Shown here: one piece after another, positions 1 to 26,615 of the stretch | Layout of the letters: each line of letters begins with the position of its first letter | Numbering within the stretch: the first letter of the stretch is position 1 | Assembly (NCBI GenBank): GCA_947034885.2 | Contig: OX344750.2 | Coordinates: forward strand, 1-64,000 | Direction: 5' to 3' | Origin: Thuidium tamariscinum | Taxonomy: Eukaryota; Streptophyta; Bryopsida; Hypnales; Thuidiaceae | DNA length: 64,000 nucleotides | Notes under the pieces: generated by a model | Databases searched by the model: none | What the model was told of the DNA's origin: nothing | Seen by the model: the letters and a program-made list of their open reading frames with translations, nothing else | Made by a program: the position numbers and the translations under genes

Positions 1-42
1 ACTAAACCCTAAACCCTAAACCCTAAACCCTAAACCCTAAAC
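1..42 (+). repeat. Plant-type telomere tract at left edge
   Basis: Six perfect or near-perfect CCCTAAA repeats begin at base 1, on the C-rich strand as expected for a left chromosome end. The tract is only about 42 bp, shorter than several identical tracts heading the later units. It could therefore be the truncated start of a real telomere, or simply another interstitial tract where the assembly stops. Confidence 0.95.
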
Positions 43-383
43 TTGAGGGTAAGGGGTGTTAGTTATTTTTGGGGGGTATTTGCTTTTCATTGTTGGGTAT
101 TTTGGGTGTTTGGGTTAATTGTTTTGGAAGGCATATGATGGCCAATTTAAGAATTTTATGGGTCTATATTTAGGGTTCTTGATTAAGGGTTTACATTTCC
201 AAGGTTTAGGAGTTTGGGGATGCGTTTTTGGGTTTAGAATTATTTCATTTTGCCTTGCTGATTTTAGGGTGTTGTGGGGTGTTGGGTGGATTTTTGGTCA
301 TTTTTCTCCGATTTAGGGGTTTAGGGAGTGCTTTTTCAGTGATTTTTCGAGGAGATTTCGATCGTATATAGTATTTAGGCGCT

Positions 384-1819
384 ATGGAGATGACAGATAT
401 CATCGACCTTAGTAGTTCGGATGATGAGGCGTTTATTAGTGGATTGGAGTCATCCGTACGTGGTCCAGTTATACCACGTACTGTTATGGATGTTGTACGC
501 AGTCGACGTTCCGGTCTTGTCATCCAGCCAGTGCCTTCTGTAGAGGAGGATGTTCCTGTTTCTCCAGTCCAGTTACCAGTACGTGGTCCAGTTATACCAC
601 GTACTGTTATGGATGTTGTACGTAGTCGACGTTCTGGTCTTGTCATCCAGCTAGTGCCTTCTATGGTTTCGGATGTACTAGTTTCTGTAGTCCAGTTACC
701 GGTTTCTCCAGTCCAGCCACTAGTTTCTCTAGTCCAGTCACCTGTTTCTCCAGTCCAGTCACCAATCCTTTCTGCCCCTATTTTGTCACCGTTAGCTGCT
801 CCAGTGCATCGCCGAGTAGTTCGAAGGGCTAGGATGTTGATTATCGGTGATAGTAGTGATGACGAGGATGTGCCACCTGCTCGAGCTGTACGACCTCGTC
901 GAGCTCAGGCACCAGCTCCTCAGAGTCTGCCAGGCTCTACTGTACGTCGTTTATATCCTCGTATAGCGCTAGCTAGGGATAGATCTACAGGATGCACTCG
1001 TTTCCCTCCACTTTCTGGACCGTCCACGGAGGATCTAGGGGTGAACGACCCACATAGTCTAGATTTAGACGCAGCTTGCTTCACGATGTTGACATTGGAT
1101 TTGCCAGCGTTGTTTGGCATCATGGCTCGTCCAGCGAGTCGGAAGATTCCTGTTAGGGATCTTCCAGAGTTTGTGGATTGGCTCCATGTCATTTCCGATC
1201 CGATAGTGGTCAAGGTTTATGCAGGGAACCTTGACGAGGATAGAGAGGCCTTTAAGGCCTCTTTGGTGGATATCCTCCGTGTTCACTTTGCCATGACATT
1301 GACTTGTGCTCCTGACAGTTTGACACTGGCTAGGAGCCAAGTCAATGTCCCCGTCTCGGCCATGTCCGAGGCTCTCCACTCTTTGGGAGCCAGATTGTGC
1401 CGAGTTTCCTTCTTTGGCATGAAGTGGTCCTATTCCGACCGTTGAGCCCATGATAGATCGCTTCATACAGCGATATCGTGAGCAGATGGGCTCATACGTT
1501 CCGATCGGGCGGAACGTCTTCGATTACGGGGTTCGGATTCCTACAGATGGACTACTGTTCTTTAGATTCAGCGATGAGCAGTATCGTGCGTCTAGATTCA
1601 GAGAGGGCTTAGTACACGAGATGTGCGTCCAGCAGGGCTTTGGATCAGTAGAGTGCAGACCACTCCATGACCTTCGTTTAGCGAAGGTCAAGGTCTATCA
1701 GGAGCTCTGTCACGATATCTTAGCCACGATACCCCGTCGGTTCCTTGATGACATACCCTACCACGACGTTCACCATCCGCACTCGAGTGCGACAGTTACA
1801 AGATCTGTTACAGCGTTGA
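384..1819 (+). pseudogene. Unit 1 copy of the 477-aa gene, two frameshifts
   Basis: Same gene as at 3722-5155, where the protein is described. Here one extra C near 1429-1430 and a second near 1757 shift the frame, so the reading frame is cut into 384-1445, 1450 to about 1760, and a short end before the shared TGA at 1817-1819. Apart from these two indels the sequence matches the intact copies. Because both are single-base C insertions next to existing C, and this unit lies at the sequence end, consensus error is as likely as true decay. Confidence 0.85.
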
Positions 1820-1825
1820 GCAGAT

Positions 1826-2479
1826 ATGACGGATGAGGTGCGCCTTAGTCATCTGTCAGGCATTCGGATCCAGCTCACAGTGCAGACAGAGATGGTGATC
1901 GACGGACGGCGACTCTGCAGCGAGCACGACTTGTTCAGCATTGCAGGCCTCGAGAGAGCGCTAGGTGGATCCTTCGACACGAAGGTGGCTACTGCTGAGT
2001 TCATTTTGCAGGGTTGTCAGGGCTTTATGGCAGCACTGGCAGAGATGGTCCATGGCAGGAACGAGCGTGATCCATCGTTGGAGATTCAGAGTACTTTGAC
2101 GTTTGCTCGTCAGGCTTTTGGGTGGAGTGGCAGATACATGAGACGTCAGCTACAGCAGGCACGTGATTGGGCTGTAGCGGCAGCTGCTGCAGATGCATCT
2201 AGACTTGAGGTTACTATGGACTTAGGGTTTTCATACGAGGGCGTAGAATTGGATAGTCCTGAGCTCCGACCTCTGATCCATGATTTCCTCCATCATGCGG
2301 ATTGGGCCCTTCAGGGTAGAGTTCGAGATCGTACTGTTTCAGGGCTCCTGCTAAGGAGTACCACGGGTGGTCATTACCTCCCGAAGAGGGGCATCTACAC
2401 TGATCGTGTAGGCGCAGCTCGTCACTATCTAGGCTTGTATGGGGCAGAGTGGAGAGTACACATTCGATCTATTGCATAG
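1826..2479 (+). CDS. Unit 1 copy of the 217-aa protein
   Basis: Intact copy of the second gene of the unit, starting six bases after the TGA of the first gene. It carries Gln at residue 16, shared only with unit 2; units 3-8 have Lys. The function is unknown; the protein is described at 5162-5815. Confidence 0.8.
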   Translation: MTDEVRLSHLSGIRIQLTVQTEMVIDGRRLCSEHDLFSIAGLERALGGSFDTKVATAEFILQGCQGFMAALAEMVHGRNERDPSLEIQSTLTFARQAFGWSGRYMRRQLQQARDWAVAAAAADASRLEVTMDLGFSYEGVELDSPELRPLIHDFLHHADWALQGRVRDRTVSGLLLRSTTGGHYLPKRGIYTDRVGAARHYLGLYGAEWRVHIRSIA

Positions 2480-3315
2480 ATCGATACATACCACTCTCTA
2501 TATTTTTTTGATTACATATTCGGATATTTTTTTCTATTATATATATACATTTTTCTATACTTTTCTAGTTTCCAACAAGTCCTCTTAATTTGCCACACCT
2601 AAAAAAACATTCATAATTTATACTCTAAATACCTTATTCTAAATATACTCAAGGGCTCTCTAAAATGATAAAAAACTCTTCAATTGGACATTGTATGAAG
2701 AACTTATGGACGGATGAAGTTTCCAAATAACAACCTACCTTCATCCATCCATAACTCATGCATACAAGGTCCAATCACCAAGTGGGATACAAATTCTAAA
2801 CACCCACTCCTAAACTTACAACATTGCTTTAGGTCAAACTTTCGAAATCATCCATCTTCAAAAAGTCAACTTTGAGGTCAAATAGGCCATATCTCCCAAA
2901 CTAAGCCCACTCTAATGGATTTTCTTTACTCCATTGTGTTCACAACCCTTGAAAATGGGGGGGGTAGGTACCTTGAAACCCTAAAAATACCTAAACCCTA
3001 AAAAGATACCAACCCTATTTGCTACTTTTGAAACTCTTATAACTTTCAACCCTAAACTCTTTTGGGGAAACCAACACCACCATTGGATTCACAATACCCA
3101 CAAATAGGGGGGTAGGTCTTCTCAAAACTTCAAAATACATTACCCTAAAGAAAGTCAACTCACCCTCTAAAAGTCCAAGTTGCTATATCTCCCAATCCGT
3201 GATAGTGTAATGGTGGTTTTTTGCACCATTGGATAGGCCCTACCCCTAAATGGGGGGGGTAGCCAAAATCCTAGCTCAAAAAAAACATGTCAAAAATTCG
3301 GGGATGCCCTTGTAA
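2480..3315. repeat. Non-coding tail of the unit, three G-run sub-repeats
   Basis: AT-rich, no ORF. After a pyrimidine-rich and TATATA-rich stretch downstream of the ORF2 stop, it holds three diverged copies of a module of about 148 bp. Each has words like CCATTGGATT and ends in a run of 6-8 G followed by TAGG or TAGC. CCCTAAA-like words are scattered through it. The same tail closes every unit, and it is the only part kept in the decayed copies at 26.6-28.7 kb, so it appears to be the old satellite core onto which the gene-bearing part was added. Confidence 0.85.
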
Positions 3316-3380
3316 CCCTAAAACCCTAAACCCTAAACCCTAAACCCTAAACCCTAAACCCTAAACCCTAAACCCTAAAC
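3316..3380 (+). repeat. Interstitial telomere tract between units 1 and 2
   Basis: Nine or so CCCTAAA repeats (the first with an extra A), in the same orientation as the terminal tract. Unlike the junction tracts before units 3-8, it lacks the single shortened CCCTAA repeat. Confidence 0.95.
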
Positions 3381-3721
3381 TTGAGGTAAGGGGGTGTTAG
3401 TTATTTTTGGGGGGTATTTGCTTTTCATTGTTGGGTATTTTGGGTGTTTGGGTTAATTGTTTTGGAAGGCATATGATGGCCAATTTAAGAATTTTATGGG
3501 TCTATATTTAGGGTTCTTGATTAAGGTTTACATTTCCAAGGTTTAGGAGTTTGGGGATGCGTTTTTGGGTTTAGAATTATTTCATTTTGCCTTGCTGATT
3601 TTAGGGTGTTGTGGGGTGTTGGGTGGATTTTTGGTCATTTTTCTTCCGATTTAGGGGTTTAGGGAGTGCTTTTTCAGTGATTTTTCGAGGAGATTTCGAT
3701 CGTATATAGTATTTAGGCGCT

Positions 3722-5155
3722 ATGGAGATGACAGATATCATCGACCTTAGTAGTTCGGATGATGAGGCGTTTATTAGTGGATTGGAGTCATCCGTACGTG
3801 GTCCAGTTATACCACGTACTGTTATGGATGTTGTACGCAGTCGACGTTCCGGTCTTGTCATCCAGCCAGTGCCTTCTGTAGAGGAGGATGTTCCTGTTTC
3901 TCCAGTCCAGTTACCAGTACGTGGTCCAGTTATACCACGTACTGTTATGGATGTTGTACGTAGTCGACGTTCTGGTCTTGTCATCCAGCTAGTGCCTTCT
4001 ATGGTTTCGGATGTACTAGTTTCTGTAGTCCAGTTACCGGTTTCTCCAGTCCAGCCACTAGTTTCTCTAGTCCAGTCACCTGTTTCTCCAGTCCAGTCAC
4101 CAATCCTTTCTGCCCCTATTTTGTCACCGTTAGCTGCTCCAGTGCATCGCCGAGTAGTTCGAAGGGCTAGGATGTTGATTATCGGTGATAGTAGTGATGA
4201 CGAGGATGTGCCACCTGCTCGAGCTGTACGACCTCGTCGAGCTCAGGCACCAGCTCCTCAGAGTCTGCCAGGCTCTACTGTACGTCGTTTATATCCTCGT
4301 ATAGCGCTAGCTAGGGATAGATCTACAGGATGCACTCGTTTCCCTCCACTTTCTGGACCGTCCACGGAGGATCTAGGGGTGAACGACCCACATAGTCTAG
4401 ATTTAGACGCAGCTTGCTTCACGATGTTGACATTGGATTTGCCAGCGTTGTTTGGCATCATGGCTCGTCCAGCGAGTCGGAAGATTCCTGTTAGGGATCT
4501 TCCAGAGTTTGTGGATTGGCTCCATGTCATTTCCGATCCGATAGTGGTCAAGGTTTATGCAGGGAACCTTGACGAGGATAGAGAGGCCTTTAAGGCCTCT
4601 TTGGTGGATATCCTCCGTGTTCACTTTGCCATGACATTGACTTGTGCTCCTGACAGTTTGACACTGGCTAGGAGCCAAGTCAATGTCCCCGTCTCGGCCA
4701 TGTCCGAGGCTCTCCACTCTTTGGGAGCCAGATTGTGCCGAGTTTCCTTCTTTGGCATGAAGTGGTCTATTCCGACCGTTGAGCCCATGATAGATCGCTT
4801 CATACAGCGATATCGTGAGCAGATGGGCTCATACGTTCCGATCGGGCGGAACGTCTTCGATTACGGGGTTCGGATTCCTACAGATGGACTACTGTTCTTT
4901 AGATTCAGCGATGAGCAGTATCGTGCGTCTAGATTCAGAGAGGGCTTAGTACACGAGATGTGCGTCCAGCAGGGCTTTGGATCAGTAGAGTGCAGACCAC
5001 TCCATGACCTTCGTTTAGCGAAGGTCAAGGTCTATCAGGAGCTCTGTCACGATATCTTAGCCACGATACCCCGTCGGTTCCTTGATGACATACCTACCAC
5101 GACGTTCACCATCCGCACTCGAGTGCGACAGTTACAAGATCTGTTACAGCGTTGA
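3722..5155 (+). CDS. 477-aa unknown protein of the telomere-flanked unit (reference copy)
   Basis: I do not recognise a family. The N-terminal half (1 to about 215) looks disordered. Residues 6-15 (IIDLSSSDDE) and 152-162 (LIIGDSSDDED) are hydrophobic cores followed by Ser/Asp/Glu runs, the classic form of a phospho-regulated SUMO-interacting motif. Residues 25-52 and 66-93 are an almost perfect 28-residue duplication (123 bp apart, in frame). VSPVQ-type repeats fill 94-130. A basic stretch (RRVVRRAR, about 143-150) could be a nuclear signal. From about 220 to the end the sequence looks globular, with aromatic and charged residues mixed. The ATG is the first after a stretch free of ORFs and opens directly onto the first motif. 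The next gene follows in the same frame after one TGA. Codon use is richer in GC than the AT-rich tail. That it is translated is inferred from the long open frame and from its maintenance in six of eight units. Confidence 0.8.
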   Translation: MEMTDIIDLSSSDDEAFISGLESSVRGPVIPRTVMDVVRSRRSGLVIQPVPSVEEDVPVSPVQLPVRGPVIPRTVMDVVRSRRSGLVIQLVPSMVSDVLVSVVQLPVSPVQPLVSLVQSPVSPVQSPILSAPILSPLAAPVHRRVVRRARMLIIGDSSDDEDVPPARAVRPRRAQAPAPQSLPGSTVRRLYPRIALARDRSTGCTRFPPLSGPSTEDLGVNDPHSLDLDAACFTMLTLDLPALFGIMARPASRKIPVRDLPEFVDWLHVISDPIVVKVYAGNLDEDREAFKASLVDILRVHFAMTLTCAPDSLTLARSQVNVPVSAMSEALHSLGARLCRVSFFGMKWSIPTVEPMIDRFIQRYREQMGSYVPIGRNVFDYGVRIPTDGLLFFRFSDEQYRASRFREGLVHEMCVQQGFGSVECRPLHDLRLAKVKVYQELCHDILATIPRRFLDDIPTTTFTIRTRVRQLQDLLQR

Positions 5156-5161
5156 GCAGAT

Positions 5162-5815
5162 ATGACGGATGAGGTGCGCCTTAGTCATCTGTCAGGCATT
5201 CGGATCCAGCTCACAGTGCAGACAGAGATGGTGATCGACGGACGGCGACTCTGCAGCGAGCACGACTTGTTCAGCATTGCAGGCCTCGAGAGAGCGCTAG
5301 GTGGATCCTTCGACACGAAGGTGGCTACTGCTGAGTTCATTTTGCAGGGTTGTCAGGGCTTTATGGCAGCACTGGCAGAGATGGTCCATGGCAGGAACGA
5401 GCGTGATCCATCGTTGGAGATTCAGAGTACTTTGACGTTTGCTCGTCAGGCTTTTGGGTGGAGTGGCAGATACATGAGACGTCAGCTACAGCAGGCACGT
5501 GATTGGGCTGTAGCGGCAGCTGCTGCAGATGCATCTAGACTTGAGGTTACTATGGACTTAGGGTTTTCATACGAGGGCGTAGAATTGGATAGTCCTGAGC
5601 TCCGACCTCTGATCCATGATTTCCTCCATCATGCGGATTGGGCCCTTCAGGGTAGAGTTCGAGATCGTACTGTTTCAGGGCTCCTGCTAAGGAGTACCAC
5701 GGGTGGTCATTACCTCCCGAAGAGGGGCATCTACACTGATCGTGTAGGCGCAGCTCGTCACTATCTAGGCTTGTATGGGGCAGAGTGGAGAGTACACATT
5801 CGATCTATTGCATAG
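5162..5815 (+). CDS. 217-aa unknown protein of the telomere-flanked unit (reference copy)
   Basis: Unrecognised. Sequence features: likely beta strands near the N-terminus (about 5-28), a helix-rich middle with an Ala run (A118-A122) and basic residues just before it (about 103-113), and an Arg/His-rich C-terminal part. Only two Cys, no signal peptide, no membrane span. It starts six bases after the stop of the 477-aa gene and in the same frame, so the two could be one 697-residue product by stop readthrough, a termination-reinitiation pair, or two proteins. Unit copies differ only at residue 16 (Gln in units 1-2, Lys in 3-8). Confidence 0.75.
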   Translation: MTDEVRLSHLSGIRIQLTVQTEMVIDGRRLCSEHDLFSIAGLERALGGSFDTKVATAEFILQGCQGFMAALAEMVHGRNERDPSLEIQSTLTFARQAFGWSGRYMRRQLQQARDWAVAAAAADASRLEVTMDLGFSYEGVELDSPELRPLIHDFLHHADWALQGRVRDRTVSGLLLRSTTGGHYLPKRGIYTDRVGAARHYLGLYGAEWRVHIRSIA

Positions 5816-7056
5816 ATCGATACATACCACTCTCTATATTTTTTTGATTACATATTCGGATATTTTTTTCTATTATATATATACATTTTTCTATACTTTT
5901 CTAGTTTCCAACAAGTCCTCTTAATTTGCCACACCTAAAAAAACATTCATAATTTATACTCTAAATACCTTATTCTAAATATACTCAAGGGCTCTCTAAA
6001 ATGATAAAAAACTCTTCAATTGGACATTGTATGAAGAACTTATGGACGGATGAAGTTTCCAAATAACAACCTACCTTCATCCATCCATAACTCATGCATA
6101 CAAGGTCCAATCACCAAGTGGGATACAAATTCTAAACACCCACTCCTAAACTTACAACATTGCTTTAGGTCAAACTTTCGAAATCATCCATCTTCAAAAA
6201 GTCAACTTTGAGGTCAAATAGGCCATATCTCCCAAACTAAGCCCACTCTAATGGATTTTCTTTACTCCATTGTGTTCACAACCCTTGAAAATGGGGGGGT
6301 AGGTACCTTGAAACCCTAAAAATACCTAAACCCTAAAAAGATACCAACCCTATTTGCTACTTTTGAAACTCTTATAACTTTCAACCCTAAACTCTTTTGG
6401 GGAAACCAACACCACCATTGGATTCACAATACCCACAAATAGGGGGGTAGGTCTTCTCAAAACTTCAAAATACATTACCCTAAAGAAAGTCAACTCACCC
6501 TCTAAAAGTCCAAGTTGCTATATCTCCCAATCCGTGATAGTGTAATGGTGGTTTTTTGCACCATTGGATAGGCCCTACCCCTAAATGGGGGGGTAGCCAA
6601 AATCCTAGCTCAAAAAAAACATGTCAAAAATTCGGGGGATGCCCTTGTAACCCTAAAACCCTAAACCCTAAACCCTAAACCCTAACCCTAAACCCTAAAC
6701 CCTAAACCCTAAACTTGAGGTAAGGGGTGTTAGTTATTTTTGGGGGGTATTTGCTTTTCATTGTTGGGTATTTTGGGTGTTTGGGTTAATTGTTTTGGAA
6801 GGCATATGATGGCCAATTTAAGAATTTTATGGGTCTATATTTAGGGTTCTTGATTAAGGTTTACATTTCCAAGGTTTAGGAGTTTGGGGATGCGTTTTTG
6901 GGTTTAGAATTATTTCATTTTGCCTTGCTGATTTTAGGGTGTTGTGGGGGTGTTGGGTGGATTTTTGGTCATTTTTCTTCCGATTTAGGGGTTTAGGGAG
7001 TGCTTTTTCAGTGATTTTTTCGAGGAGATTTCGATCGTATATAGTATTTAGGCGCT

Positions 7057-8491
7057 ATGGAGATGACAGATATCATCGACCTTAGTAGTTCGGATGATGA
7101 GGCGTTTATTAGTGGATTGGAGTCATCCGTACGTGGTCCAGTTATACCACGTACTGTTATGGATGTTGTACGCAGTCGACGTTCCGGTCTTGTCATCCAG
7201 CCAGTGCCTTCTGTAGAGGAGGATGTTCCTGTTTCTCCAGTCCAGTTACCAGTACGTGGTCCAGTTATACCACGTACTGTTATGGATGTTGTACGTAGTC
7301 GACGTTCTGGTCTTGTCATCCAGCTAGTGCCTTCTATGGTTTCGGATGTACTAGTTTCTGTAGTCCAGTTACCGGTTTCTCCAGTCCAGCCACTAGTTTC
7401 TCTAGTCCAGTCACCTGTTTCTCCAGTCCAGTCACCAATCCTTTCTGCCCCTATTTTGTCACCGTTAGCTGCTCCAGTGCATCGCCGAGTAGTTCGAAGG
7501 GCTAGGATGTTGATTATCGGTGATAGTAGTGATGACGAGGATGTGCCACCTGCTCGAGCTGTACGACCTCGTCGAGCTCAGGCACCAGCTCCTCAGAGTC
7601 TGCCAGGCTCTACTGTACGTCGTTTATATCCTCGTATAGCGCTAGCTAGGGATAGATCTACAGGATGCACTCGTTTCCCTCCACTTTCTGGACCGTCCAC
7701 GGAGGATCTAGGGTGTGAACGACCCACATAGTCTAGATTTAGACGCAGCTTGCTTCACGATGTTGACATTGGATTTGCCAGCGTTGTTTGGCATCATGGC
7801 TCGTCCAGCGAGTCGGAAGATTCCTGTTAGGGATCTTCCAGAGTTTGTGGATTGGCTCCATGTCATTTCCGATCCGATAGTGGTCAAGGTTTATGCAGGG
7901 AACCTTGACGAGGATAGAGAGGCCTTTAAGGCCTCTTTGGTGGATATCCTCCGTGTTCACTTTGCCATGACATTGACTTGTGCTCCTGACAGTTTGACAC
8001 TGGCTAGGAGCCAAGTCAATGTCCCCGTCTCGGCCATGTCCGAGGCTCTCCACTCTTTGGGAGCCAGATTGTGCCGAGTTTCCTTCTTTGGCATGAAGTG
8101 GTCTATTCCGACCGTTGAGCCCATGATAGATCGCTTCATACAGCGATATCGTGAGCAGATGGGCTCATACGTTCCGATCGGGCGGAACGTCTTCGATTAC
8201 GGGGTTCGGATTCCTACAGATGGACTACTGTTCTTTAGATTCAGCGATGAGCAGTATCGTGCGTCTAGATTCAGAGAGGGCTTAGTACACGAGATGTGCG
8301 TCCAGCAGGGCTTTGGATCAGTAGAGTGCAGACCACTCCATGACCTTCGTTTAGCGAAGGTCAAGGTCTATCAGGAGCTCTGTCACGATATCTTAGCCAC
8401 GATACCCCGTCGGTTCCTTGATGACATACCTACCACGACGTTCACCATCCGCACTCGAGTGCGACAGTTACAAGATCTGTTACAGCGTTGA
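7057..8491 (+). pseudogene. Unit 3 copy of the 477-aa gene, one frameshift
   Basis: At about 7710-7715 this copy reads AGGGTGTGAAC where the intact copies read AGGGGTGAAC, a net insertion of one base. Reading stops at 7731 after 224 residues; the rest is open in another frame (7715-8491). Everything else matches the intact copies. The residue affected is at about 219, near the border between the disordered half and the globular half. Real mutation or sequencing error cannot be told apart here. Confidence 0.85.
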
Positions 8492-8497
8492 GCAGAT

Positions 8498-9151
8498 ATG
8501 ACGGATGAGGTGCGCCTTAGTCATCTGTCAGGCATTCGGATCAAGCTCACAGTGCAGACAGAGATGGTGATCGACGGACGGCGACTCTGCAGCGAGCACG
8601 ACTTGTTCAGCATTGCAGGCCTCGAGAGAGCGCTAGGTGGATCCTTCGACACGAAGGTGGCTACTGCTGAGTTCATTTTGCAGGGTTGTCAGGGCTTTAT
8701 GGCAGCACTGGCAGAGATGGTCCATGGCAGGAACGAGCGTGATCCATCGTTGGAGATTCAGAGTACTTTGACGTTTGCTCGTCAGGCTTTTGGGTGGAGT
8801 GGCAGATACATGAGACGTCAGCTACAGCAGGCACGTGATTGGGCTGTAGCGGCAGCTGCTGCAGATGCATCTAGACTTGAGGTTACTATGGACTTAGGGT
8901 TTTCATACGAGGGCGTAGAATTGGATAGTCCTGAGCTCCGACCTCTGATCCATGATTTCCTCCATCATGCGGATTGGGCCCTTCAGGGTAGAGTTCGAGA
9001 TCGTACTGTTTCAGGGCTCCTGCTAAGGAGTACCACGGGTGGTCATTACCTCCCGAAGAGGGGCATCTACACTGATCGTGTAGGCGCAGCTCGTCACTAT
9101 CTAGGCTTGTATGGGGCAGAGTGGAGAGTACACATTCGATCTATTGCATAG
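8498..9151 (+). CDS. Unit 3 copy of the 217-aa protein
   Basis: Intact, Lys at residue 16. It would lie downstream of a frameshifted first gene, which in this copy would block any readthrough product but not independent initiation. Confidence 0.75.
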   Translation: MTDEVRLSHLSGIRIKLTVQTEMVIDGRRLCSEHDLFSIAGLERALGGSFDTKVATAEFILQGCQGFMAALAEMVHGRNERDPSLEIQSTLTFARQAFGWSGRYMRRQLQQARDWAVAAAAADASRLEVTMDLGFSYEGVELDSPELRPLIHDFLHHADWALQGRVRDRTVSGLLLRSTTGGHYLPKRGIYTDRVGAARHYLGLYGAEWRVHIRSIA

Positions 9152-10375
9152 ATCGATACATACCACTCTCTATATTTTTTTGATTACATATTCGGATATT
9201 TTTTTTCTATTATATATATACATTTTTCTATACTTTTCTAGTTTCCAACAAGTCCTCTTAATTTGCCACACCTAAAAAAACATTCATAATTTATACTCTA
9301 AATACCTTATTCTAAATATACTCAAGGGCTCTCTAAAATGATAAAAAACTCTTCAATTGGACATTGTATGAAGAACTTATGGACGGATGAAGTTTCCAAA
9401 TAACAACCTACCTTCATCCATCCATAACTCATGCATACAAGGTCCAATCACCAAGTGGGATACAAATTCTAAACACCCACTCCTAAACTTACAACATTGC
9501 TTTAGGTCAAACTTTCGAAATCATCCATCTTCAAAAAGTCAACTTTGAGGTCAAATAGGCCATATCTCCCAAACTAAGCCCACTCTAATGGATTTTCTTT
9601 ACTCCATTGTGTTCACAACCCTTGAAAATGGGGGGGTAGGTACCTTGAAACCCTAAAAATACCTAAACCCTAAAAAGATACCAACCCTATTTGCTACTTT
9701 TGAAACTCTTATAACTTTCAACCCTAAACTCTTTTGGGGAAACCAACACCACCATTGGATTCACAATACCCACAAATAGGGGGGTAGGTCTTCTCAAAAC
9801 TTCAAAATACATTACCCTAAAGAAAGTCAACTCACCCTCTAAAAGTCCAAGTTGCTATATCTCCCAATCCGTGATAGTGTAATGGTGGTTTTTTGCACCA
9901 TTGGATAGGCCCTACCCCTAAATGGGGGGGTAGCCAAAATCCTAGCTCAAAAAAAACATGTCAAAAATTCGGGGATGCCCTTGTAACCCTAAACCCTAAA
10001 CCCTAACCCTAAACCCTAAACCCTAAACCCTAAACTTGAGGTAAGGGGTGTTAGTTATTTTTGGGGGGTATTTGCTTTTCATTGTTGGGTATTTTGGGTG
10101 TTTGGGTTAATTGTTTTGGAAGGCATATGATGGCCAATTTAAGAATTTTATGGGTCTATATTTAGGGTTCTTGATTAAGGTTTACATTTCCAAGGTTTAG
10201 GAGTTTGGGGATGCGTTTTTGGGTTTAGAATTATTTCATTTTGCCTTGCTGATTTTAGGGTGTTGTGGGGTGTTGGGTGGATTTTTGGTCATTTTTCTTC
10301 CGATTTAGGGGTTTAGGGAGTGCTTTTTCAGTGATTTTTCGAGGAGATTTCGATCGTATATAGTATTTAGGCGCT

Positions 10376-11809: not shown

Positions 11810-11815
11810 GCAGAT

Positions 11816-15141: not shown

Positions 15142-15147
15142 GCAGAT

Positions 15148-17039: not shown

Positions 17040-18473
17040 ATGGAGATGACAGATATCATCGACCTTAGTAGTTCGGATGATGAGGCGTTTATTAGTGGAT
17101 TGGAGTCATCCGTACGTGGTCCAGTTATACCACGTACTGTTATGGATGTTGTACGCAGTCGACGTTCCGGTCTTGTCATCCAGCCAGTGCCTTCTGTAGA
17201 GGAGGATGTTCCTGTTTCTCCAGTCCAGTTACCAGTACGTGGTCCAGTTATACCACGTACTGTTATGGATGTTGTACGTAGTCGACGTTCTGGTCTTGTC
17301 ATCCAGCTAGTGCCTTCTATGGTTTCGGATGTACTAGTTTCTGTAGTCCAGTTACCGGTTTCTCCAGTCCAGCCACTAGTTTCTCTAGTCCAGTCACCTG
17401 TTTCTCCAGTCCAGTCACCAATCCTTTCTGCCCCTATTTTGTCACCGTTAGCTGCTCCAGTGCATCGCCGAGTAGTTCGAAGGGCTAGGATGTTGATTAT
17501 CGGTGATAGTAGTGATGACGAGGATGTGCCACCTGCTCGAGCTGTACGACCTCGTCGAGCTCAGGCACCAGCTCCTCAGAGTCTGCCAGGCTCTACTGTA
17601 CGTCGTTTATATCCTCGTATAGCGCTAGCTAGGGATAGATCTACAGGATGCACTCGTTTCCCTCCACTTTCTGGACCGTCCACGGAGGATCTAGGGGTGA
17701 ACGACCCACATAGTCTAGATTTAGACGCAGCTTGCTTCACGATGTTGACATTGGATTTGCCAGCGTTGTTTGGCATCATGGCTCGTCCAGCGAGTCGGAA
17801 GATTCCTGTTAGGGATCTTCCAGAGTTTGTGGATTGGCTCCATGTCATTTCCGATCCGATAGTGGTCAAGGTTTATGCAGGGAACCTTGACGAGGATAGA
17901 GAGGCCTTTAAGGCCTCTTTGGTGGATATCCTCCGTGTTCACTTTGCCATGACATTGACTTGTGCTCCTGACAGTTTGACACTGGCTAGGAGCCAAGTCA
18001 ATGTCCCCGTCTCGGCCATGTCCGAGGCTCTCCACTCTTTGGGAGCCAGATTGTGCCGAGTTTCCTTCTTTGGCATGAAGTGGTCTATTCCGACCGTTGA
18101 GCCCATGATAGATCGCTTCATACAGCGATATCGTGAGCAGATGGGCTCATACGTTCCGATCGGGCGGAACGTCTTCGATTACGGGGTTCGGATTCCTACA
18201 GATGGACTACTGTTCTTTAGATTCAGCGATGAGCAGTATCGTGCGTCTAGATTCAGAGAGGGCTTAGTACACGAGATGTGCGTCCAGCAGGGCTTTGGAT
18301 CAGTAGAGTGCAGACCACTCCATGACCTTCGTTTAGCGAAGGTCAAGGTCTATCAGGAGCTCTGTCACGATATCTTAGCCACGATACCCCGTCGGTTCCT
18401 TGATGACATACCTACCACGACGTTCACCATCCGCACTCGAGTGCGACAGTTACAAGATCTGTTACAGCGTTGA
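17040..18473 (+). CDS. Unit 6 copy of the 477-aa protein
   Basis: Open copy, translation identical to the reference at 3722-5155. Confidence 0.8.
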   Translation: MEMTDIIDLSSSDDEAFISGLESSVRGPVIPRTVMDVVRSRRSGLVIQPVPSVEEDVPVSPVQLPVRGPVIPRTVMDVVRSRRSGLVIQLVPSMVSDVLVSVVQLPVSPVQPLVSLVQSPVSPVQSPILSAPILSPLAAPVHRRVVRRARMLIIGDSSDDEDVPPARAVRPRRAQAPAPQSLPGSTVRRLYPRIALARDRSTGCTRFPPLSGPSTEDLGVNDPHSLDLDAACFTMLTLDLPALFGIMARPASRKIPVRDLPEFVDWLHVISDPIVVKVYAGNLDEDREAFKASLVDILRVHFAMTLTCAPDSLTLARSQVNVPVSAMSEALHSLGARLCRVSFFGMKWSIPTVEPMIDRFIQRYREQMGSYVPIGRNVFDYGVRIPTDGLLFFRFSDEQYRASRFREGLVHEMCVQQGFGSVECRPLHDLRLAKVKVYQELCHDILATIPRRFLDDIPTTTFTIRTRVRQLQDLLQR

Positions 18474-18479
18474 GCAGAT

Positions 18480-19133
18480 ATGACGGATGAGGTGCGCCTT
18501 AGTCATCTGTCAGGCATTCGGATCAAGCTCACAGTGCAGACAGAGATGGTGATCGACGGACGGCGACTCTGCAGCGAGCACGACTTGTTCAGCATTGCAG
18601 GCCTCGAGAGAGCGCTAGGTGGATCCTTCGACACGAAGGTGGCTACTGCTGAGTTCATTTTGCAGGGTTGTCAGGGCTTTATGGCAGCACTGGCAGAGAT
18701 GGTCCATGGCAGGAACGAGCGTGATCCATCGTTGGAGATTCAGAGTACTTTGACGTTTGCTCGTCAGGCTTTTGGGTGGAGTGGCAGATACATGAGACGT
18801 CAGCTACAGCAGGCACGTGATTGGGCTGTAGCGGCAGCTGCTGCAGATGCATCTAGACTTGAGGTTACTATGGACTTAGGGTTTTCATACGAGGGCGTAG
18901 AATTGGATAGTCCTGAGCTCCGACCTCTGATCCATGATTTCCTCCATCATGCGGATTGGGCCCTTCAGGGTAGAGTTCGAGATCGTACTGTTTCAGGGCT
19001 CCTGCTAAGGAGTACCACGGGTGGTCATTACCTCCCGAAGAGGGGCATCTACACTGATCGTGTAGGCGCAGCTCGTCACTATCTAGGCTTGTATGGGGCA
19101 GAGTGGAGAGTACACATTCGATCTATTGCATAG
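18480..19133 (+). CDS. Unit 6 copy of the 217-aa protein
   Basis: Intact Lys16 copy, same spacing and frame as in the other units. Confidence 0.75.
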   Translation: MTDEVRLSHLSGIRIKLTVQTEMVIDGRRLCSEHDLFSIAGLERALGGSFDTKVATAEFILQGCQGFMAALAEMVHGRNERDPSLEIQSTLTFARQAFGWSGRYMRRQLQQARDWAVAAAAADASRLEVTMDLGFSYEGVELDSPELRPLIHDFLHHADWALQGRVRDRTVSGLLLRSTTGGHYLPKRGIYTDRVGAARHYLGLYGAEWRVHIRSIA

Positions 19134-20371
19134 ATCGATACATACCACTCTCTATATTTTTTTGATTACATATTCGGATATTTTTTTCTATTATATATAT
19201 ACATTTTTCTATACTTTTCTAGTTTCCAACAAGTCCTCTTAATTTGCCACACCTAAAAAAACATTCATAATTTATACTCTAAATACCTTATTCTAAATAT
19301 ACTCAAGGGCTCTCTAAAATGATAAAAAACTCTTCAATTGGACATTGTATGAAGAACTTATGGACGGATGAAGTTTCCAAATAACAACCTACCTTCATCC
19401 ATCCATAACTCATGCATACAAGGTCCAATCACCAAGTGGGATACAAATTCTAAACACCCACTCCTAAACTTACAACATTGCTTTAGGTCAAACTTTCGAA
19501 ATCATCCATCTTCAAAAAGTCAACTTTGAGGTCAAATAGGCCATATCTCCCAAACTAAGCCCACTCTAATGGATTTTCTTTACTCCATTGTGTTCACAAC
19601 CCTTGAAAATGGGGGGGTAGGTACCTTGAAACCCTAAAAATACCTAAACCCTAAAAAGATACCAACCCTATTTGCTACTTTTGAAACTCTTATAACTTTC
19701 AACCCTAAACTCTTTTGGGGAAACCAACACCACCATTGGATTCACAATACCCACAAATAGGGGGGTAGGTCTTCTCAAAACTTCAAAATACATTACCCTA
19801 AAGAAAGTCAACTCACCCTCTAAAAGTCCAAGTTGCTATATCTCCCAATCCGTGATAGTGTAATGGTGGTTTTTTGCACCATTGGATAGGCCCTACCCCT
19901 AAATGGGGGGGTAGCCAAAATCCTAGCTCAAAAAAAACATGTCAAAAATTCGGGGATGCCCTTGTAACCCTAAAACCCTAAACCCTAAACCCTAAACCCT
20001 AACCCTAAACCCTAAACCCTAAACCCTAAACTTGAGGTAAGGGGTGTTAGTTATTTTTGGGGGGTATTTGCTTTTCATTGTTGGGTATTTTGGGTGTTTG
20101 GGTTAATTGTTTTGGAAGGCATATGATGGCCAATTTAAGAATTTTATGGGTCTATATTTAGGGTTCTTGATTAAGGTTTACATTTCCAAGGTTTAGGAGT
20201 TTGGGGATGCGTTTTTGGGTTTAGAATTATTTCATTTTGCCTTGCTGATTTTAGGGTGTTGTGGGGTGTTGGGTGGATTTTTGGTCATTTTTCTTCCGAT
20301 TTAGGGGTTTAGGGAGTGCTTTTTCAGTGATTTTTCGAGGAGATTTCGATCGTATATAGTATTTAGGCGCT

Positions 20372-21805
20372 ATGGAGATGACAGATATCATCGACCTTAG
20401 TAGTTCGGATGATGAGGCGTTTATTAGTGGATTGGAGTCATCCGTACGTGGTCCAGTTATACCACGTACTGTTATGGATGTTGTACGCAGTCGACGTTCC
20501 GGTCTTGTCATCCAGCCAGTGCCTTCTGTAGAGGAGGATGTTCCTGTTTCTCCAGTCCAGTTACCAGTACGTGGTCCAGTTATACCACGTACTGTTATGG
20601 ATGTTGTACGTAGTCGACGTTCTGGTCTTGTCATCCAGCTAGTGCCTTCTATGGTTTCGGATGTACTAGTTTCTGTAGTCCAGTTACCGGTTTCTCCAGT
20701 CCAGCCACTAGTTTCTCTAGTCCAGTCACCTGTTTCTCCAGTCCAGTCACCAATCCTTTCTGCCCCTATTTTGTCACCGTTAGCTGCTCCAGTGCATCGC
20801 CGAGTAGTTCGAAGGGCTAGGATGTTGATTATCGGTGATAGTAGTGATGACGAGGATGTGCCACCTGCTCGAGCTGTACGACCTCGTCGAGCTCAGGCAC
20901 CAGCTCCTCAGAGTCTGCCAGGCTCTACTGTACGTCGTTTATATCCTCGTATAGCGCTAGCTAGGGATAGATCTACAGGATGCACTCGTTTCCCTCCACT
21001 TTCTGGACCGTCCACGGAGGATCTAGGGGTGAACGACCCACATAGTCTAGATTTAGACGCAGCTTGCTTCACGATGTTGACATTGGATTTGCCAGCGTTG
21101 TTTGGCATCATGGCTCGTCCAGCGAGTCGGAAGATTCCTGTTAGGGATCTTCCAGAGTTTGTGGATTGGCTCCATGTCATTTCCGATCCGATAGTGGTCA
21201 AGGTTTATGCAGGGAACCTTGACGAGGATAGAGAGGCCTTTAAGGCCTCTTTGGTGGATATCCTCCGTGTTCACTTTGCCATGACATTGACTTGTGCTCC
21301 TGACAGTTTGACACTGGCTAGGAGCCAAGTCAATGTCCCCGTCTCGGCCATGTCCGAGGCTCTCCACTCTTTGGGAGCCAGATTGTGCCGAGTTTCCTTC
21401 TTTGGCATGAAGTGGTCTATTCCGACCGTTGAGCCCATGATAGATCGCTTCATACAGCGATATCGTGAGCAGATGGGCTCATACGTTCCGATCGGGCGGA
21501 ACGTCTTCGATTACGGGGTTCGGATTCCTACAGATGGACTACTGTTCTTTAGATTCAGCGATGAGCAGTATCGTGCGTCTAGATTCAGAGAGGGCTTAGT
21601 ACACGAGATGTGCGTCCAGCAGGGCTTTGGATCAGTAGAGTGCAGACCACTCCATGACCTTCGTTTAGCGAAGGTCAAGGTCTATCAGGAGCTCTGTCAC
21701 GATATCTTAGCCACGATACCCCGTCGGTTCCTTGATGACATACCTACCACGACGTTCACCATCCGCACTCGAGTGCGACAGTTACAAGATCTGTTACAGC
21801 GTTGA
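20372..21805 (+). CDS. Unit 7 copy of the 477-aa protein
   Basis: Open copy, translation identical to the reference at 3722-5155. Confidence 0.8.
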   Translation: MEMTDIIDLSSSDDEAFISGLESSVRGPVIPRTVMDVVRSRRSGLVIQPVPSVEEDVPVSPVQLPVRGPVIPRTVMDVVRSRRSGLVIQLVPSMVSDVLVSVVQLPVSPVQPLVSLVQSPVSPVQSPILSAPILSPLAAPVHRRVVRRARMLIIGDSSDDEDVPPARAVRPRRAQAPAPQSLPGSTVRRLYPRIALARDRSTGCTRFPPLSGPSTEDLGVNDPHSLDLDAACFTMLTLDLPALFGIMARPASRKIPVRDLPEFVDWLHVISDPIVVKVYAGNLDEDREAFKASLVDILRVHFAMTLTCAPDSLTLARSQVNVPVSAMSEALHSLGARLCRVSFFGMKWSIPTVEPMIDRFIQRYREQMGSYVPIGRNVFDYGVRIPTDGLLFFRFSDEQYRASRFREGLVHEMCVQQGFGSVECRPLHDLRLAKVKVYQELCHDILATIPRRFLDDIPTTTFTIRTRVRQLQDLLQR

Positions 21806-21811
21806 GCAGAT

Positions 21812-22465
21812 ATGACGGATGAGGTGCGCCTTAGTCATCTGTCAGGCATTCGGATCAAGCTCACAGTGCAGACAGAGATGGTGATCGACGGACGGCGACT
21901 CTGCAGCGAGCACGACTTGTTCAGCATTGCAGGCCTCGAGAGAGCGCTAGGTGGATCCTTCGACACGAAGGTGGCTACTGCTGAGTTCATTTTGCAGGGT
22001 TGTCAGGGCTTTATGGCAGCACTGGCAGAGATGGTCCATGGCAGGAACGAGCGTGATCCATCGTTGGAGATTCAGAGTACTTTGACGTTTGCTCGTCAGG
22101 CTTTTGGGTGGAGTGGCAGATACATGAGACGTCAGCTACAGCAGGCACGTGATTGGGCTGTAGCGGCAGCTGCTGCAGATGCATCTAGACTTGAGGTTAC
22201 TATGGACTTAGGGTTTTCATACGAGGGCGTAGAATTGGATAGTCCTGAGCTCCGACCTCTGATCCATGATTTCCTCCATCATGCGGATTGGGCCCTTCAG
22301 GGTAGAGTTCGAGATCGTACTGTTTCAGGGCTCCTGCTAAGGAGTACCACGGGTGGTCATTACCTCCCGAAGAGGGGCATCTACACTGATCGTGTAGGCG
22401 CAGCTCGTCACTATCTAGGCTTGTATGGGGCAGAGTGGAGAGTACACATTCGATCTATTGCATAG
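21812..22465 (+). CDS. Unit 7 copy of the 217-aa protein
   Basis: Intact Lys16 copy, same spacing and frame as in the other units. Confidence 0.75.
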   Translation: MTDEVRLSHLSGIRIKLTVQTEMVIDGRRLCSEHDLFSIAGLERALGGSFDTKVATAEFILQGCQGFMAALAEMVHGRNERDPSLEIQSTLTFARQAFGWSGRYMRRQLQQARDWAVAAAAADASRLEVTMDLGFSYEGVELDSPELRPLIHDFLHHADWALQGRVRDRTVSGLLLRSTTGGHYLPKRGIYTDRVGAARHYLGLYGAEWRVHIRSIA

Positions 22466-23688
22466 ATCGATACATACCACTCTCTATATTTTTTTGATTA
22501 CATATTCGGATATTTTTTTCTATTATATATATACATTTTTCTATACTTTTCTAGTTTCCAACAAGTCCTCTTAATTTGCCACACCTAAAAAAACATTCAT
22601 AATTTATACTCTAAATACCTTATTCTAAATATACTCAAGGGCTCTCTAAAATGATAAAAAACTCTTCAATTGGACATTGTATGAAGAACTTATGGACGGA
22701 TGAAGTTTCCAAATAACAACCTACCTTCATCCATCCATAACTCATGCATACAAGGTCCAATCACCAAGTGGGATACAAATTCTAAACACCCACTCCTAAA
22801 CTTACAACATTGCTTTAGGTCAAACTTTCGAAATCATCCATCTTCAAAAAGTCAACTTTGAGGTCAAATAGGCCATATCTCCCAAACTAAGCCCACTCTA
22901 ATGGATTTTCTTTACTCCATTGTGTTCACAACCCTTGAAAATGGGGGGGTAGGTACCTTGAAACCCTAAAAATACCTAAACCCTAAAAAGATACCAACCC
23001 TATTTGCTACTTTTGAAACTCTTATAACTTTCAACCCTAAACTCTTTTGGGGAAACCAACACCACCATTGGATTCACAATACCCACAAATAGGGGGGTAG
23101 GTCTTCTCAAAACTTCAAAATACATTACCCTAAAGAAAGTCAACTCACCCTCTAAAAGTCCAAGTTGCTATATCTCCCAATCCGTGATAGTGTAATGGTG
23201 GTTTTTTGCACCATTGGATAGGCCCTACCCCTAAATGGGGGGGTAGCCAAAATCCTAGCTCAAAAAAAACATGTCAAAAATTCGGGGATGCCCTTGTAAC
23301 CCTAAACCCTAAACCCTAACCCTAAACCCTAAACCCTAAACCCTAAACTTGAGGTAAGGGGTGTTAGTTATTTTTGGGGGGTATTTGCTTTTCATTGTTG
23401 GGTATTTTGGGTGTTTGGGTTAATTGTTTTGGAAGGCATATGATGGCCAATTTAAGAATTTTATGGGTCTATATTTAGGGTTCTTGATTAAGGTTTACAT
23501 TTCCAAGGTTTAGGAGTTTGGGGATGCGTTTTTGGGTTTAGAATTATTTCATTTTGCCTTGCTGATTTTAGGGTGTTGTGGGGTGTTGGGTGGATTTTTG
23601 GTCATTTTTCTTCCGATTTAGGGGTTTAGGGAGTGCTTTTTCAGTGATTTTTCGAGGAGATTTCGATCGTATATAGTATTTAGGCGCT

Positions 23689-25122
23689 ATGGAGATGACA
23701 GATATCATCGACCTTAGTAGTTCGGATGATGAGGCGTTTATTAGTGGATTGGAGTCATCCGTACGTGGTCCAGTTATACCACGTACTGTTATGGATGTTG
23801 TACGCAGTCGACGTTCCGGTCTTGTCATCCAGCCAGTGCCTTCTGTAGAGGAGGATGTTCCTGTTTCTCCAGTCCAGTTACCAGTACGTGGTCCAGTTAT
23901 ACCACGTACTGTTATGGATGTTGTACGTAGTCGACGTTCTGGTCTTGTCATCCAGCTAGTGCCTTCTATGGTTTCGGATGTACTAGTTTCTGTAGTCCAG
24001 TTACCGGTTTCTCCAGTCCAGCCACTAGTTTCTCTAGTCCAGTCACCTGTTTCTCCAGTCCAGTCACCAATCCTTTCTGCCCCTATTTTGTCACCGTTAG
24101 CTGCTCCAGTGCATCGCCGAGTAGTTCGAAGGGCTAGGATGTTGATTATCGGTGATAGTAGTGATGACGAGGATGTGCCACCTGCTCGAGCTGTACGACC
24201 TCGTCGAGCTCAGGCACCAGCTCCTCAGAGTCTGCCAGGCTCTACTGTACGTCGTTTATATCCTCGTATAGCGCTAGCTAGGGATAGATCTACAGGATGC
24301 ACTCGTTTCCCTCCACTTTCTGGACCGTCCACGGAGGATCTAGGGGTGAACGACCCACATAGTCTAGATTTAGACGCAGCTTGCTTCACGATGTTGACAT
24401 TGGATTTGCCAGCGTTGTTTGGCATCATGGCTCGTCCAGCGAGTCGGAAGATTCCTGTTAGGGATCTTCCAGAGTTTGTGGATTGGCTCCATGTCATTTC
24501 CGATCCGATAGTGGTCAAGGTTTATGCAGGGAACCTTGACGAGGATAGAGAGGCCTTTAAGGCCTCTTTGGTGGATATCCTCCGTGTTCACTTTGCCATG
24601 ACATTGACTTGTGCTCCTGACAGTTTGACACTGGCTAGGAGCCAAGTCAATGTCCCCGTCTCGGCCATGTCCGAGGCTCTCCACTCTTTGGGAGCCAGAT
24701 TGTGCCGAGTTTCCTTCTTTGGCATGAAGTGGTCTATTCCGACCGTTGAGCCCATGATAGATCGCTTCATACAGCGATATCGTGAGCAGATGGGCTCATA
24801 CGTTCCGATCGGGCGGAACGTCTTCGATTACGGGGTTCGGATTCCTACAGATGGACTACTGTTCTTTAGATTCAGCGATGAGCAGTATCGTGCGTCTAGA
24901 TTCAGAGAGGGCTTAGTACACGAGATGTGCGTCCAGCAGGGCTTTGGATCAGTAGAGTGCAGACCACTCCATGACCTTCGTTTAGCGAAGGTCAAGGTCT
25001 ATCAGGAGCTCTGTCACGATATCTTAGCCACGATACCCCGTCGGTTCCTTGATGACATACCTACCACGACGTTCACCATCCGCACTCGAGTGCGACAGTT
25101 ACAAGATCTGTTACAGCGTTGA
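23689..25122 (+). CDS. Unit 8 copy of the 477-aa protein
   Basis: Open copy, translation identical to the reference at 3722-5155. The innermost copy, normally expected to be the oldest, shows no decay. Confidence 0.8.
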   Translation: MEMTDIIDLSSSDDEAFISGLESSVRGPVIPRTVMDVVRSRRSGLVIQPVPSVEEDVPVSPVQLPVRGPVIPRTVMDVVRSRRSGLVIQLVPSMVSDVLVSVVQLPVSPVQPLVSLVQSPVSPVQSPILSAPILSPLAAPVHRRVVRRARMLIIGDSSDDEDVPPARAVRPRRAQAPAPQSLPGSTVRRLYPRIALARDRSTGCTRFPPLSGPSTEDLGVNDPHSLDLDAACFTMLTLDLPALFGIMARPASRKIPVRDLPEFVDWLHVISDPIVVKVYAGNLDEDREAFKASLVDILRVHFAMTLTCAPDSLTLARSQVNVPVSAMSEALHSLGARLCRVSFFGMKWSIPTVEPMIDRFIQRYREQMGSYVPIGRNVFDYGVRIPTDGLLFFRFSDEQYRASRFREGLVHEMCVQQGFGSVECRPLHDLRLAKVKVYQELCHDILATIPRRFLDDIPTTTFTIRTRVRQLQDLLQR

Positions 25123-25128
25123 GCAGAT

Positions 25129-25782
25129 ATGACGGATGAGGTGCGCCTTAGTCATCTGTCAGGCATTCGGATCAAGCTCACAGTGCAGACAGAGATGGTG
25201 ATCGACGGACGGCGACTCTGCAGCGAGCACGACTTGTTCAGCATTGCAGGCCTCGAGAGAGCGCTAGGTGGATCCTTCGACACGAAGGTGGCTACTGCTG
25301 AGTTCATTTTGCAGGGTTGTCAGGGCTTTATGGCAGCACTGGCAGAGATGGTCCATGGCAGGAACGAGCGTGATCCATCGTTGGAGATTCAGAGTACTTT
25401 GACGTTTGCTCGTCAGGCTTTTGGGTGGAGTGGCAGATACATGAGACGTCAGCTACAGCAGGCACGTGATTGGGCTGTAGCGGCAGCTGCTGCAGATGCA
25501 TCTAGACTTGAGGTTACTATGGACTTAGGGTTTTCATACGAGGGCGTAGAATTGGATAGTCCTGAGCTCCGACCTCTGATCCATGATTTCCTCCATCATG
25601 CGGATTGGGCCCTTCAGGGTAGAGTTCGAGATCGTACTGTTTCAGGGCTCCTGCTAAGGAGTACCACGGGTGGTCATTACCTCCCGAAGAGGGGCATCTA
25701 CACTGATCGTGTAGGCGCAGCTCGTCACTATCTAGGCTTGTATGGGGCAGAGTGGAGAGTACACATTCGATCTATTGCATAG
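25129..25782 (+). CDS. Unit 8 copy of the 217-aa protein
   Basis: Intact Lys16 copy, same spacing and frame as in the other units. Confidence 0.75.
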   Translation: MTDEVRLSHLSGIRIKLTVQTEMVIDGRRLCSEHDLFSIAGLERALGGSFDTKVATAEFILQGCQGFMAALAEMVHGRNERDPSLEIQSTLTFARQAFGWSGRYMRRQLQQARDWAVAAAAADASRLEVTMDLGFSYEGVELDSPELRPLIHDFLHHADWALQGRVRDRTVSGLLLRSTTGGHYLPKRGIYTDRVGAARHYLGLYGAEWRVHIRSIA

Positions 25783-26615
25783 ATCGATACATACCACTCT
25801 CTATATTTTTTTGATTACATATTCGGATATTTTTTTCTATTATATATATACATTTTTCTATACTTTTCTAGTTTCCAACAAGTCCTCTTAATTTGCCACA
25901 CCTAAAAAAACATTCATAATTTATACTCTAAATACCTTATTCTAAATATACTCAAGGGCTCTCTAAAATGATAAAAAACTCTTCAATTGGACATTGTATG
26001 AAGAACTTATGGACGGATGAAGTTTCCAAATAACAACCTACCTTCATCCATCCATAACTCATGCATACAAGGTCCAATCACCAAGTGGGATACAAATTCT
26101 AAACACCCACTCCTAAACTTACAACATTGCTTTAGGTCAAACTTTCGAAATCATCCATCTTCAAAAAGTCAACTTTGAGGTCAAATAGGCCATATCTCCC
26201 AAACTAAGCCCACTCTAATGGATTTTCTTTACTCCATTGTGTTCACAACCCTTGAAAATGGGGGGGTAGGTACCTTGAAACCCTAAAAATACCTAAACCC
26301 TAAAAAGATACCAACCCTATTTGCTACTTTTGAAACTCTTATAACTTTCAACCCTAAACTCTTTTGGGGAAACCAACACCACCATTGGATTCACAATACC
26401 CACAAATAGGGGGGTAGGTCTTCTCAAAACTTCAAAATACATTACCCTAAAGAAAGTCAACTCACCCTCTAAAAGTCCAAGTTGCTATATCTCCCAATCC
26501 GTGATAGTGTAATGGTGGTTTTTTGCACCATTGGATAGGCCCTACCCCTAAATGGGGGGGTAGCCAAAATCCTAGCTCAAAAAAAACATGTCAAAAATTC
26601 GGGGATGCCCTTGTA

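Follow-up and report, generated by a model that had tools for sequence, protein, structure and literature searches.

How does a gene-bearing repeat come to be built into the chromosome ends of a plant that also encodes telomerase? The question is raised by the left end of contig C2 (OX344750.2, 47.85 Mb) in the genome assembly of Thuidium tamariscinum (GCA_947034885.2), of which we analyzed bases 1 to 64000 (hereafter the window). The contig begins within an array of head-to-tail units joined by CCCTAAA, the telomere repeat of this genome. We consider it probable that the unit is a telomere-anchored repeated element with one gene, copies of which have been eroded, healed with new telomere repeats, and copied between chromosome ends by recombination at the telomere tracts. 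A first-pass annotation of the window had proposed a plant analogue of the yeast Y' elements; its observations were partly confirmed and its interpretation is partly supported. The assembly amounts to 363.2 Mb in 19 contigs, and the 22 ends of the 11 large contigs (17.5 to 54.2 Mb) were treated as chromosome ends. C18 (103 kb) carries, in its first 10 kb, genes which, from their translations, we take to be mitochondrial; by the same evidence the first 10 kb of C19 presumably carry plastid genes (rpoB, rps7 and ndhB among them).

Eight units of 3267 to 3272 bp lie at the left end of the window, all on the forward strand. They occupy positions 43-3314 (unit 1, 3272 bp), 3381-6649, 6715-9985, 10036-13302, 13368-16634 (unit 5, 3267 bp, used as the reference), 16700-19966, 20032-23298, and 23349-26615 (unit 8). 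The CCCTAAA tracts, which all have the same forward orientation as first reported, are found at 2-42 (the contig start), 3314-3380, 6649-6714 (with an internal CCCTAACCC variant), 9985-10035 (a short form), 13302-13367, 16634-16699, 19966-20031, 23298-23348 (again a short form), and 26615-26644. The motif CCCTAAACCCTAAA occurs 51 times in the window, exclusively on the forward strand, and not at all in sequence shuffles. No base differs among units 4 to 8. Compared with these five, unit 1 has seven one-base indels, unit 2 has two, and unit 3 has four (all insertions). A single substitution is common to units 1 and 2, and in units 1 and 3 the reading frame has further breaks. The array runs on past 26615, its annotated end. 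That position is followed by two short units of about 0.34 to 0.36 kb, each with its tract (26615-26955 and 26955-27316; the first contains just the final ~0.3 kb of the element), and then by two diverged 3' tails (27496-28137, 75% identity; 28164-28642, 81% identity) with the same 3' end as the array units, the second of which runs into CCCTAAA repeats. An array of long terminal repeat (LTR) retrotransposons, suggested by the trailing short units, was rejected as a candidate because these units are the element's own 3' end, with a telomere-like stretch inside the element as their starting point. Only at C2 left and C3 right were full-length arrays seen; at C5 right and C7 right a single near-full-length copy is present. 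Since the C2 and C3 contigs both stop inside the array, the array length at either end is a minimum.

Two long genes had been assigned to each unit. The two open reading frames (ORFs), located in unit 2 at 3722-5155 (477 amino acids, aa) and 5162-5815 (217 aa), are in the same frame and are parted by a single TGA (5153-5155). The copies at C5 right and C7 right have TGG at this site and a single intact ORF of 697 aa, and TGG is also found in an interior relic on C3. We concluded that the unit carries one gene with a nonsense codon, and two separate genes are ruled out. A Pfam search returned no family at E ≤ 10 for the 477-aa ORF, the 217-aa ORF or the intact 697-aa protein, and so no match to a helicase, reverse transcriptase (RT) or transposase. 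No homologs were found in phages, IMG/VR or prokaryote genomes, the latter two scans detecting close relatives only. PDB matches to the 217-aa part (E 0.0056) and the 697-aa protein (E 0.31) were too weak to be believed; so were a PHROGs match (0.11) and a Pfam DUF630 match (E 0.03, below the family cut-off) of a 383-aa paralog. The C5 copy reaches 82 bp beyond the window units, and this extra stretch holds a TATA box. The same copy contains a splice-like GTAAG, a putative splice site. A diverged 5' region on C2 (44.55 Mb) retains both the TATA box and GTAAG, and a 141-bp query that includes the TATA region found no further copy with this region beyond these two. Because the window units are without the TATA region, the amplified copies look promoterless as well as frame-broken. 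As a separate observation, the diverged 5' region on C2 (44549250-44550049) adjoins an apparent inverted 3' tail of the same superfamily.

Copies of the element were mapped genome-wide. In a six-frame protein search the 217-aa part matched 88 places and the 477-aa part matched 40, and matches with at least 89% identity are all at contig ends, save one relic 435 kb inside C3. A 20-mer from the 3' end, allowing up to two mismatches, was found 194 times (144 on the plus and 50 on the minus strand), and its reversed control was not found. The listed matches comprise 100 of the 194 places, all of them exact and on C1 to C6. Among these 100, 97 are within 27 kb of a contig end (90 on the plus strand less than 27 kb from left ends and 7 on the minus strand less than 16 kb from right ends) and 3 are interior. 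The 3' end is present at no fewer than 16 of the 22 contig ends (left, C1-C4 and C6-C9; right, C1, C3-C8 and C10), on the plus strand at left ends and on the minus strand at right ends, and every copy read at an end has its 5' end facing the telomere. C8 left carries a stub alone, and some ends hold remnants rather than copies. No exact 3' end is seen at C2 right or C5 left among the matches listed, and it is absent from the first 10 kb of C5 left. At C10 left and C11 left, blastn showed no match over 100 bp within the initial 10 kb (2.5 kb masked in each); the right ends of C2, C9 and C11 were left unread. The young copies seen are end-specific. The chromosome-end location first suggested was thus found to hold, and young copies do not lie mainly at internal loci. 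Contig ends that finish in 0.7 to 1.3 kb of telomere repeat (C3, C4, C6 and C9 left; C5 right) carry truncated copies. The TERT RNA-binding domain is encoded once, on C10.

Two interior loci were also noted. A relict chain of three head-to-tail copies with unequal divergence is found 435 kb inside the right end of C3 (46925700-46929600), with the least diverged copy nearest the centromere; it would be a former chromosome end or a relocated end piece. Mid-way in the largest contig (C1, 33317900-33319900), tail copies are accompanied by telomere-like repeats, possibly at a fusion point.

The alignment comprised 91 copies that have the exact 3' end, taken from 15 ends and one interior locus. They have one 3' end, GCCCTTGTAACCC (16626-16638 at the end of unit 5), followed by telomere repeat, and 28 distinct usable 5' starts. 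These remained from 33 starts after removal of 1077, 2935, 3040 and 3229, which lie at a contig end or a mask, and of 2582, which belongs to a diverged copy. Twenty-four of the 28 starts fall within the last 36% of the element (binomial p 5e-8; Kolmogorov-Smirnov (KS) p 4e-7, or 1e-5 once neighboring starts were merged to 24). For the seed test alone, starts 2209 and 2930 were left out; the former abuts the 3' end of another copy without an intervening tract. Junction seeds overlap the telomere phase by at least 1 nucleotide (nt) in 21 of 26 cases and by at least 3 nt in 12. The mean seed is 2.38 nt, compared with a null value of 0.63 (whole element) or 0.81 (3' third) (P ≤ 1e-5). In a conservative set of 20 junctions (six doubtful ones removed) the mean is 1.85 nt (P 0.00025, and 0.0038 with the stricter null). 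Judged from these junctions, the variable 5' starts on telomere-like seeds would be terminal truncations. The same seed pattern is reported for 17 of 23 truncated MoTeR elements of a fungus (PMC7367193; this and the other published systems are described here from excerpts of the cited papers).

The same 5' starts recur on different chromosomes: 2172 on C4 and C6; 2209 on C6, C8 and C10; 2684 on C5 and C8; and the window form on C2 and C3. Tract lengths in order are 61, 61, 61, 46 at C3 right and 62, 61, 46, 61, 61, 61, 46 at C2 left, i.e., the C3 order is the inner part of the C2 order. The two arrays diverge inside the proximal tract, and the flanks beyond it differ. Multi-copy blocks are found as well. 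C1 left alternates starts 2594 and 2557, C8 right alternates 2684 and 2209, and a five-copy block is present twice at C3 left. Identical tracts within an array suggest that the tract was copied along with the unit, as has been argued for MoTeR arrays (PMC7367193). The identical junctions across chromosomes and the repeated blocks indicate, as far as sequence comparison can tell, spread and amplification via telomere-tract recombination. Spread by recombination at the tracts, already proposed in the first-pass annotation, is borne out by these junctions and by the tract order common to C2 left and C3 right.

This anatomy could be accounted for by the following course of events. At chromosome ends, as the layout of the copies shows, the 5' side faces outward and the constant 3' end is joined on the centromere side to telomere repeats. 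The outermost copy may then be trimmed from the telomere side at the variable points seen in the junctions and be capped with new CCCTAAA, in most cases where one to several telomere-like bases serve as a seed. Eroded or broken ends could invade interstitial tracts elsewhere and copy all distal DNA (break-induced replication); particular truncated forms would thereby move between chromosomes, and the shared junctions are consistent with such moves. Reiterated D-loop or rolling-circle copying would presumably turn one or several copies into head-to-tail arrays whose tracts are identical, and the array in the window would be a run of one promoterless, frame-broken copy. Tract recombination explains the present arrays, though not necessarily the first origin of the constant 3' end.

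Several points weigh against recombination as the full account. The full-length arrays stop at contig ends, so assembly could have distorted how long they are and how far they are shared. Certain shared starts may also have arisen more than once at the same seed. Start 2594, on C1 and C3, is perhaps such a case, given a 5-nt seed at the site and copies that match the window unit at 95 and 99% identity. The non-uniform truncation is not predicted by single random breaks, and repeated erosion could yield it. Finally, there is a sister tail family at interior sites in which the 3' end is the same and telomere repeat is scant or absent.

This family was followed with a 589-bp tail on C4 left ending in GGATAGCCCTGTAACCC, which gave 19 matches. 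In the sister tails at C3 14.457 Mb and C7 10.222 Mb, non-telomeric DNA follows immediately on this shared end point. The tails at C4 2.327 Mb and C8 12.56 Mb finish in short degenerate repeats, and those at C1 right are in tandem with a tract. Over the 200 columns compared, identity between the two tail families is highest in the last 20 columns (0.78, a value biased because the sister family was searched for by that motif) and in a block 120 to 160 columns inside (0.75 to 0.82), against 0.39 to 0.68 in the 100 columns next to the last 20. A fixed 3' end at unrelated sites fits insertion from the 3' end, and an RNA-mediated origin is therefore possible. For this reason the earlier argument, that spread by recombination or rolling circles is likely as no RT or transposase is seen, was too quick: its premise agrees with the Pfam result, but the constant 3' end is common to the interior sister family.

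An RNA-mediated origin would mean a telomere-attaching retroelement without its own polymerase, similar to HeT-A or MoTeR2, which we regard as possible but doubtful. The C-rich transcript end would pair with the G-rich telomere overhang and prime there through its CCCTAAA, and RT supplied in trans (by another element or telomerase) would produce the fixed 3' end and the 5' truncation; recombination would reshuffle the copies later. Interior copies would result from 3'-end attachment at broken chromosomes. The sense orientation of the constant 3' end and the (CCCTAAA)n behind it fit this reading, as do the tract-free sister tails on C3 and C7 and, with the ascertainment bias just given, the likeness of the last 20 columns. 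So does the strong 3' bias of truncation, for which either incomplete reverse transcription or repeated erosion could be responsible. A 93-nt hairpin predicted in the 3' untranslated region (16005-16097 in unit 5, plus strand; -36.1 kcal/mol, z -7.5) points the same way. It is largely kept in three diverged copies, and in a comparison of only 4 sequences 2 of 29 pairs show two-sided change while several pairs are broken in one sequence. Two microRNA-like matches in the unit (E 0.14 and 0.21) lie on this hairpin, far under the gathering scores, and were rejected.

Other results disfavor a retroelement. The unit is without RT, and in a search for RVT_1, with 150 of 696 candidates scored and the end ORFs part-scanned, none of the scored matches lies less than 250 kb from a contig end. 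The C5 copy retains a TATA box, which would sit upstream of the element's own transcript, and the putative splice site. No target-site duplication could be shown. Rfam gave no hammerhead or other RNA at gathering level in the window, and no hammerhead at E ≤ 1 in the unit. It is a tentative and rather improbable proposition that a telomerase-bearing land plant hosts polymerase-less telomere-attaching retroelements with a protein of their own, as a counterpart of HeT-A and MoTeR2. Separately, ORFs with a CCHC zinc knuckle-like motif were noticed by eye in the C4 subtelomere (locus L013, 4110-5198, minus strand); they probably belong to an unrelated retroelement.

Ordinary subtelomeric duplication, in which a host gene was caught in repeated end-to-end exchange and is a passive passenger without mobility, is unlikely. 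The amplified copies suit a passenger in that they lack the TATA region and carry the nonsense codon. It also suits a passenger that the gene family is old and constrained: comparison with two interior paralogs gave saturated synonymous divergence (pS 0.80 to 0.88) and nonsynonymous divergence (pN) of 0.31 to 0.35, from which long-term purifying selection on the family follows. Young copies show no sign of purifying selection. The C5 and C7 copies differ by no synonymous and three nonsynonymous changes, and the C5 copy differs from the array by two synonymous and six nonsynonymous changes plus the stop, the latter comparison also being in line with a passenger. A passenger is less easily reconciled with the interior paralogs, which are found on several chromosomes at 27 to 63% identity and are mostly incomplete or with stops, and with the same 3' boundary in diverged families at unrelated places. 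An array collapsed or invented by the assembler at a contig end is highly improbable: the C2 and C3 contigs do stop within the array and the unit differences cluster in the three outermost units, but the tract variants are ordered and ends finishing in telomere repeat carry truncated copies of the element.

Some paralog loci have a structure of their own. At C2 47005000-47008000 the gene paralog forms a palindrome, with two inverted copies meeting near the middle, and similar plus/minus pairs of paralog fragments are present at C1 3.488 Mb, C1 45.6255 Mb and C6 15.9585 Mb. Near-identical paralog copies are located at C7 28.32 Mb and C3 46.935 Mb, each ~430 to 440 kb from the right end, a likeness that suggests exchange of large end segments; repeated blocks lie behind the paralog gene in the C7 copy. 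A tandem repeat of ~207 bp (3.6 copies, window 53024-53780) is unrelated to the array.

With recombination at telomere tracts as the preferred explanation, the element was compared to known systems. Y' elements of Saccharomyces cerevisiae are subtelomeric tandem units with ORFs and interstitial tracts that are amplified by recombination, including break-induced replication (PMC13177704), and the analogy first drawn stands for the tandem ORF units with interstitial telomere tracts. It does not extend to the pervasive telomere-side truncation with telomere addition in the plant element, which is reported in none of 15 short Y' elements in a 2026 survey (PMC13177704), nor to the constant 3' end that is also found in the interior; the Y'-Help helicase was not found by Pfam at E ≤ 10 in either ORF or in the 697-aa protein. 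The MoTeR1/MoTeR2 elements of Magnaporthe oryzae (PMC7367193) form head-to-tail arrays with telomere tracts of variable length between copies, 5' truncations with telomere seeds of 1 to 7 nt, and multi-copy blocks with identical truncations and tracts, ascribed to D-loop or rolling-circle copying. MoTeR2 is without RT, as is the plant unit, and in MoTeR relics the 3' end still has telomere repeat (PMC7367193). FoTeR elements of Fusarium oxysporum have a 3' end followed by C-rich telomere repeats, and their truncated copies outnumber full ones (PMC12857005). The plant element shows the constant 3' end with telomere repeats, the head-to-tail layout and the seeded 5' truncation of both fungal groups. 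An RT ORF was not found in the unit proteins (Pfam, E ≤ 10), while FoTeRs encode RT (PMC12857005). It further differs from MoTeRs in its 697-aa gene, its plant host, the lack of an RT-bearing partner with the same termini among the RVT_1 matches scored above, and a longest copy that keeps a TATA box and splice-like site. In anatomy the fungal MoTeR/FoTeR arrays appear to be a closer match than Y'. The plant element is organized like Y' and especially MoTeR arrays and is a member of neither by the features tested.

The HeT-A element of Drosophila has its 5' end outward, a fixed 3' end and 5' truncation, and the plant element is similar in all three. HeT-A and TART stand in for telomerase and their gag protein has zinc knuckles; the plant has canonical telomeres and a TERT match, and its 697-aa protein gave no Pfam match. 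Subtelomeric satellites of plants are usually short and non-coding. They resemble the array in being subtelomeric and tandem, and no telomere tract per unit is described for them in the excerpts of a 2025 review (PMC12477314). The Athena/terminon elements of bdelloid rotifers have C-rich 3' repeats (PMC12477314), as does the plant unit. Their Penelope-like features were not found in it, with no RT match and no hammerhead at E ≤ 1, and, unlike HeT-A and Athena, it is accompanied by a telomerase gene and canonical telomeres. According to the same review, few telomere-associated elements occur in plants (Penelope-like elements of Selaginella and Retand of Silene, the latter subtelomeric like our unit but an LTR element), and telomeric retrotransposons of the Drosophila type have not been found in plants (PMC12477314). 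In green algae, Zepp of Chlorella is a telomeric long interspersed nuclear element (PMC10088271). Among the matches listed, the excerpts of open-licence literature contained no such units in land plants.

A Y'/MoTeR-like telomere element layout would be unusual in a land plant. In one plant assembly, copies or remnants of a single gene-bearing element, joined by telomere repeat, are present at no fewer than 16 of the 22 ends. Such ends are a readable record of erosion, telomere healing and inter-end copying in a telomerase-encoding plant, and they make it testable whether plant end building is Y'-like or retroelement-like.

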